39,006 nucleotides of DNA from Acidobacteriota bacterium (GTDB lineage: Bacteria; Acidobacteriota; UBA4820; DSQY01). Location: assembly GCA_021778515.1 (NCBI GenBank), contig JAJYCJ010000003.1, positions 39,065-78,070 of the forward strand, in the 5' to 3' direction. Shown piece by piece: positions 72 through 493 of this stretch (position 1 is the stretch's first letter; each line of letters starts with the position of its first letter). The notes under the pieces are model-generated. The model was not told where the DNA came from and did not search any database. It saw only the letters and a program-made list of their open reading frames with translations. Made by a program: the position numbers and the translations under genes.

Positions 72-149
72 GGGGTCGTAGCTCAGTTTGGTTAGAGCGC
101 CGGCCTGTCACGTCGGAGGTCGCGGGTTCGAGCCCCGTCGGCCCCGCCA
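72..149 (+). tRNA. tRNA-Asp (anticodon GTC)
   Basis: A complete cloverleaf can be drawn. The 7-bp acceptor stem (72-78 with 139-145) has one G-U pair. The anticodon stem 100-104/112-116 carries a 7-nt loop with GTC at 107-109. The T arm contains GGTTCGAGCC, the discriminator base is G146 and CCA is encoded at 147-149. It decodes GAC/GAU. It has its own promoter upstream and an intrinsic terminator at 166-198. Part of this gene is duplicated 244 bp downstream (see repeat entries). Confidence 0.96.
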
Positions 150-238
150 AAAGGATGCGAACGATGCCCCGGGCGGAGACGCCTGGGGCTTTGTTGTTGG
201 GGAGGGCGAGGAGCCGCGGCCGGCGGGGGGGAGCGGGG
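123..238 (+). repeat. direct repeat copy 1 (tRNA-Asp 3' end + terminator)
   Basis: Bases 123-238 recur without mismatch at 367-482, an offset of 244 bp. Copy 1 covers the T arm, 3' acceptor strand and CCA of tRNA-Asp, the downstream terminator hairpin and about 40 bp of G-rich sequence. It ends in a G run, where the copies diverge. Confidence 0.95.
166..198 (+). terminator. intrinsic terminator of tRNA-Asp
   Basis: GCCCCGGGCG (166-175) pairs over 10 bp with CGCCTGGGGC (180-189) around a GAGA loop, with one G-U pair. It is followed by TTTGTTGTT. This is a textbook hairpin plus T-rich tract just behind the tRNA. Confidence 0.85.
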
Positions 239-366
239 GGCGGGAAGGCCCCCCGCCCGAAGGGCGTCCCGCGGGAGAGCAGGGAGGAGCAGCGAGCGCG
301 GCGAAGCCGCGGGAGCGCCGAGGAGGGGCGGCTGAGCCCCTCCTTGGGGAGCGAGAGCGACGGGAG
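239..366. other. non-coding spacer between the two repeat copies, rich in GAA-loop hairpins
   Basis: No gene is visible here. The stretch contains CGCGGC-GAA-GCCGCG (297-311), a GCCC-GAA-GGGC hairpin near 255-265, and AGGAGGGGC/GCCCCTCCT (321-329 with 336-344). The composition is extremely G+C rich. It is present once, between the two copies of the 116-bp repeat. It may be the residue of a tandem duplication or of a deleted insertion; nothing identifies it further. Confidence 0.6.
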
Positions 367-393
367 CGGGTTCGAGCCCCGTCGGCCCCGCCA
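367..393 (+). pseudogene. tRNA-Asp 3' fragment
   Basis: Contains the 3' half of the T arm, the 3' acceptor strand and CCA of tRNA-Asp, identical to 123-149. The D arm, anticodon arm and 5' acceptor strand are missing, so it cannot form a tRNA. Such displaced 3' fragments are what tRNA-targeted integration leaves behind, but a tandem duplication would give the same picture. Confidence 0.85.
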
Positions 394-409
394 AAAGGAT
401 GCGAACGAT

Positions 410-442
410 GCCCCGGGCGGAGACGCCTGGGGCTTTGTTGTT
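410..442 (+). terminator. duplicated intrinsic terminator
   Basis: Identical to the tRNA-Asp terminator at 166-198: a 10-bp stem with GAGA loop and TTTGTTGTT tail. It now lies about 50 bp beyond the 3' end of the convergent phosphatase gene and could act as a second stop for read-through from the tRNA. Confidence 0.7.
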
Positions 443-493
443 GGGGAGGGCGAGGAGCCGCGGCCGGCGGGGGGGAGCGGGGCATTCGGGTCG

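Follow-up and report, generated by a model that had tools for sequence, protein, structure and literature searches.

Short structured repeats behind tRNA, tmRNA and protein genes in one family of Acidobacteriota: the duplicated tRNA-Asp tail and its relatives

What does it mean when the 3′ end of a tRNA gene is found a second time, without its 5′ half, a short distance behind the intact gene? The question is raised by the tRNA-Asp gene at the start of the window analysed here, a stretch of 39,006 nucleotides from an Acidobacteriota genome. The tail duplication found there belongs to a large family of short structured repeats located behind tRNA genes, the tmRNA gene and some protein genes in a single family of Acidobacteriota. 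Its example carries a warning: finding a tRNA 3′ fragment behind a tRNA does not in itself show that an island has integrated. All the genomes compared are drafts, including that of the window (G000; 3.34 Mb in 176 contigs) and that of its sister species (G001).

Anatomy of the repeat at tRNA-Asp

The host gene of the array is an intact tRNA-Asp (GTC), CCA included, at positions 72–149 of the plus strand, recognised by ARAGORN and by the Rfam tRNA model; all the features of the array described below lie on the same strand. A repeat search of the window returned an exact direct repeat of 117 nt, 122–238 and 366–482, with a spacing of 244, a match far beyond chance. The initial annotation had reported an exact duplication of 116 bp (123–238 and 367–482), which is borne out and proves one base longer. 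It had also read the second copy as carrying a tRNA 3′ fragment with CCA and without the 5′ half; indeed only the last 25 nt of tRNA-Asp (GGTTCGAG...CCA) are displaced to 369–393, the units starting at 125 and 369. In each copy the tRNA end is followed by a terminator-like hairpin, at 166–189 in the first, where TTTGTTGTTG comes next, and at 410–433 in the second. Further downstream lies X′, as we call the short inverted copy of the first part of the duplicated segment that is placed just before each element and pairs with the gene-end copy after it. In the window X′ is GGCCGGCGGGG (218–228), an inverted copy of CCCCGTCGGCC of tRNA-Asp (133–143; 377–387 in the second copy). It is succeeded by the element E1 (229–365), non-coding and with several hairpins, whose boundaries, drawn from its dispersed copies, an alignment and the fold, are approximate.

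The order is thus the tRNA 3′ end (25 nt), the terminator and E1, then again the tRNA end, the terminator and a truncated E1, of which a leftover 5′ end remains at 473–482 according to the repeat search; an identical truncation is found in the sister species (locus L050 of G001). The initial annotation had missed that the final ~20–30 bp of each repeat copy, made up of X′ and the 5′ end of E1, already belong to a repeat element. The two copies therefore represent 1.5 units of a 244-bp tandem array, the half being due to the second unit stopping soon after the start of E1. Stated in general terms, a unit comprises the host gene's 3′ end (T-arm onwards) with its terminator, and then X′ and a structured element E.

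Only 127 nt of GC-rich non-coding DNA separate the two copies, and no integrase or cargo is encoded between them. Pairing of 218–228 with 377–387 can be recognised by eye: X′ matches CCCCGTCGGCC at 10 of 11 positions, with one G-U pair in addition, which gives the closing stem P1 (read from the sequence, in an overlapping alignment). The predicted fold of 205–400 (z = −3.67) likewise pairs the X′ stretch with the tRNA-end copy. According to this model, E, the X′ preceding it and the gene-end copy following it would fold as one unit, closed by a stem of host-gene sequence. The other tRNA of the window, tRNA-Val(TAC) at 23240–23314 on the minus strand, has neither a duplicated 3′ end nor an element behind it, as judged by eye.

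Two elements and their hosts

A BLAST search with 72–482 against G000 located the spacer part at several other sites with 78–84% identity. When one E1 copy was used as the query, 15 matches were obtained in G000 and 26 in G001; all nine genomes of the family have matches, and of 31 genomes outside it one has a single weak match. At most loci E1 is flanked on both sides by copies of the end of the local gene. The hosts, which at protein loci are named from short translated ends read by eye, include tRNA-Asp and tRNA-Gly as well as the genes for fumarase, a peptidase, Asd, thiolases, a GGDEF protein, and lipoamide dehydrogenase. At one locus, L007/L047, what has been duplicated is a gene start on the opposite strand. 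A multi-unit E1 array, comprising three units of 242 bp, is located at tRNA-Gly in G001 (L051). Some E1 loci have no clear second gene-end copy: L042–L045, L049, L053, and L056. By itself E1 ends in short GTCG/CGAC sequences (seen by eye in the alignment), the longer stem being host-derived. A search for the E1 pattern in viral contigs found none. E1 copies are contained in or flanked by another dispersed repeat, GGGTGCGCCGGCGGCGACGGACCTCCTGC...CATCCTCAGCGTAC, at L042, L043, L044, L045 and L049 in G001 and at L002 and L056 in G000; in G001 the two form a composite dispersed as one unit.

Behind the tRNA-Asp genes of G003 and G005, which belong to other genera, the layout is alike and the element, E2, is a different one. 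Twenty-four E2 matches were found in G000, and every one of the nine family genomes contains the element. A covariance model built from E2 and applied with strict filters gave matches in 9 of 9 genomes of the family and in none of 238 other Acidobacteriota. Nearly all E2 copies have the same orientation: they are located on the same strand, behind a tRNA gene, and are followed by the last ~25 nt of that very tRNA, from the GGTTC of the T-arm to the CCA, and its trailer. About ten tRNA genes and the tmRNA gene serve as hosts, each contributing its own 3′ end, with up to three or four tandem units. The tmRNA gene (L142, G000:C27:31700–33900) is followed by two tandem E2 units, both of which include the T-arm and CCA end of the tmRNA itself. 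Comparison of E2 with phage, plasmid, and viral sequences gave no match, and an Rfam scan of the loci yielded only tRNA and tmRNA at gathering scores.

The host-derived closing stem and the likeness to RtT

X′ is specific to its host. Compared in a fixed register, the X′ of E2 agrees with its own tRNA at 11.7 of 15 positions, versus 9.0 for other tRNAs, and none of 20000 permutations reached the observed sum. At protein genes the X′ of E1 scores 7.65 against its own host and 4.46 against other hosts (0 of 20000 permutations), with the same outcome, 0 of 20000, when one locus per gene was kept. The tests were performed in a fixed or near-fixed register, which replaced a free-register version that was too noisy. 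In 23 aligned E2 units RNAalifold identified 44 pairs, 32 of them changed on both sides. Three stems are distinguished: P1, formed by X′ and the gene-end copy; P2 (GGGCGGG/CCCGCCC); and P3, in which the conserved GAACC of E2 pairs with the GGTTC of the T-arm copy. For P1 in the same 23 units, 45 double-change cells were counted versus 17.0 ± 3.8 after shuffling, a figure that does not translate into a probability because the E2 rows are related; 81% of its cells are paired, versus 29–54% when the two sides are slid against each other. Some host stems are poor, and in the window itself X′ is short. At several tRNA loci X′ extends beyond the duplicated piece into the tRNA, e.g., GGGATTCGAACCCGCGACC behind tRNA-Gly (L071), as it also does in RtT, which suggests copying from the intact gene and not selection base by base.

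RtT is a poorly understood RNA that is usually regarded as peculiar to tyrT of E. coli. In that species 178-bp units that include the tRNA-Tyr 3′ end stand behind tyrV, and their spacer includes an inverted copy of the T-arm matching at 19 of 22 nt (0 of 1000 dinucleotide shuffles score as high). In the structure of Rfam family RF00391 the outer stem pairs this inverted copy with the tRNA end that follows. The arrays described here resemble RtT in several ways: behind a tRNA stand tandem units that repeat its 3′ end, CCA included; the outer stem, in E1 and E2 alike, is made of an inverted and a direct copy of the host's end; and the GAGAA step after the inverted copy recurs in many E2 copies. 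The element cores, however, are not recognisably alike, and here ten or more tRNA genes, the tmRNA gene and protein genes carry units. At the gathering score RF00391 had no match in the three genomes searched (G000, G001, and G009), the E. coli control being positive, and in 18 loci searched with the RtT model nothing reached an E-value of 0.5; the resemblance is therefore one of layout, and the units are not filed as members of RF00391.

Salmonella strains differ in their number of RtT copies, recorded as the 'rtT RNA 175 bp VNTR' (PMC2658671), and RtT-like sequences before other enterobacterial genes have been noted as BIMEs (PMC2965389). According to PMC2965389, which cites Bosl and Kersten (1991), E. 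coli RtT is transcribed as a by-product, and a role in the stringent response has been proposed for it. The Salmonella 'tRNA-Gly 220 bp VNTR' (PMC2658671) was set aside as a parallel, as it may simply consist of tandem tRNA copies. No earlier description outside the enterics was found in the open-access literature, which does not prove that there is none. It is conceivable, and proposed here tentatively, that E1, E2, and RtT constitute a single class of small mobile elements that select T-arms or gene ends, duplicate 40–170 bp of the target and rewrite their closing stem as an inverted copy of it, E. coli RtT being a relic of that class. A family with many units offers a comparative set in which the fixed core, the rewritten stem and the copied gene end are separable, and its origin and function are therefore testable. 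A third kind of spacer (family f2), followed by a second tRNA-end copy, stands behind tRNA-Asp in G009, a genome of a neighbouring family (L086); this element looks similar, but its inverted T-arm copy is suggestive without being significant (72 of 1000 shuffles are as good).

Age, mode of spread and rival readings

The tRNA-Asp array of G001 has a matching cut in its second unit (L050) and is followed by the same HAD-type gene (Pfam HAD); the flank is 91.7% identical between G000 and G001 over 779 columns. The 86-nt gene-end copies show no difference within G000 and two within G001, versus 8 mismatches and 2 gaps between the genomes. Since the copies are closer within than between the species while the array predates their split, they have been homogenised. 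The array is thus old, predating the split of the two species of the genus, and is subject to concerted evolution. Of the ideas considered in the initial annotation, tandem duplication and maintenance by gene conversion are supported by an array that is common to the sister species and has been homogenised separately in each of them; a young age is not supported. The signal of homogenisation is weaker at tRNA-Gly and tRNA-Lys. At tRNA-Asp, G005 has a filled site and its congener G002 an empty one, the difference being about one unit; this single pair may reflect gain or loss alike. In G006, tRNA-Asp has no duplicate.

We consider it probable, with considerable room for doubt, that RtT-like repeat units form a short tandem array here and that E in them is a non-autonomous mobile element with a target-copied X′. 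Insertion of such an element would duplicate ~40–170 bp of the target, and X′ would result from inverted copying of the target by snap-back or template-switch DNA synthesis: a free 3′ end might fold back onto the target and be extended into X′, while a long staggered break would leave the duplicate of the gene end. Recombination between the direct repeats could afterwards multiply, shrink, and homogenise the units. Target-templated insertion is what we infer to be the route of the element to new genes. The 'mini-element' of the initial annotation can be retained in the sense that a repeat element of ~140–170 nt is involved.

A different view would be that of a vertically inherited, functional trailer RNA, in which selection maintains E (for processing, as a decoy, or in attenuation) along with the pairing of the closing stem, so that X′ tracks the host and spread from gene to gene is rare. 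Compensatory changes are strong throughout E2, orthologous tRNA-Lys and tRNA-Asp arrays are present in both species of the genus, and E. coli RtT is transcribed, a role in the stringent response having been proposed in work cited in PMC2965389. This view is nevertheless rather unlikely, given the related elements behind unrelated protein genes, once even at the opposite-strand gene start of L007/L047, the filled and empty sites by which congeners differ, and the X′ sequences of several tRNA loci that run past the duplicated piece into the tRNA, as copying predicts. The mobile element with a target-copied X′ remains our preferred reading. Tyrosine recombinases integrate at T-loop sites of tRNA genes, and integrases classically target tRNA, tmRNA, and the T-arm. 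A tRNA 3′ fragment with CCA behind an intact tRNA, duplicated from the T-arm onwards, would suit the attL/attR pair or excision scar of such an integrative element, and tRNA and tmRNA genes are targets here as well. The units, however, are in tandem and devoid of integrase or cargo, one and the same element is found with different gene ends at many loci, protein genes among them, and the layout recurs, each time with the end of the local gene, at about ten tRNA genes, the tmRNA gene and several protein genes. Comparison of the locus in relatives also reveals the tRNA-Asp end duplicated without any island in other genera (G003 and G005), the kind of outcome that the initial annotation had itself named as refuting. 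The island or scar considered in the initial annotation is accordingly highly improbable.

Also highly improbable is a MITE-like element that derives from a DNA transposon and makes target duplications of unusual length. REP/BIME sequences are dispersed bacterial hairpin repeats without a gene-end copy, and insertion sequences of the IS1549/IS1634 type produce long target duplications. E resembles these in being short, non-coding, hairpin-forming and dispersed, mostly behind genes, and in having long local direct repeats; it departs from REP/BIME in the gene-end copy and the host-derived terminal stem, and, apart from the short GTCG/CGAC ends seen by eye in E1, its terminal inverted sequence differs at every host instead of being the fixed terminal repeat of a MITE; no parent element was noticed. 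It is likewise highly improbable that the duplication is an artefact of a short-read draft assembly. The two copies are exactly identical and a 100-N scaffold gap lies directly before the window start (L001 1330–1429), 72 bp upstream of the tRNA, yet the separately assembled sister species has the array with its matching truncated second unit, and comparable layouts recur throughout the family genomes. The gap cuts the 3′ end of the upstream thiolase gene; in G001 the thiolase gene carries its own E1 array at that place (L050). An E1 array at the thiolase gene probably broke the assembly at the window start. As the gap coincides with the E1 array site of G001, the arrays here are probably incomplete and their copy numbers may be underestimated.

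A search for the insertion enzyme found none; reverse transcriptases and Y1 transposases do not fit. A resident reverse transcriptase as the mobiliser was rejected, as no RVT_1 match was present in G003, G004, G006, and G009. Y1 transposases were found both with and without E and are uninformative. In G005 a reverse transcriptase gene is located ~640 bp upstream of the E2 copy behind tRNA-SeC; it was dismissed as a helper, its surroundings being, by eye, those of a group IIC intron, with a domain-V-like sequence and insertion behind a terminator, and the same intron occurs elsewhere in G002. Group II-type introns with reverse transcriptase genes are present at L207 (G005:C406 1–1890), L208 (G002:C216), and L209 (G001:C2). 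The intron of G005 landed between the terminator of tRNA-SeC and the E2 copy.
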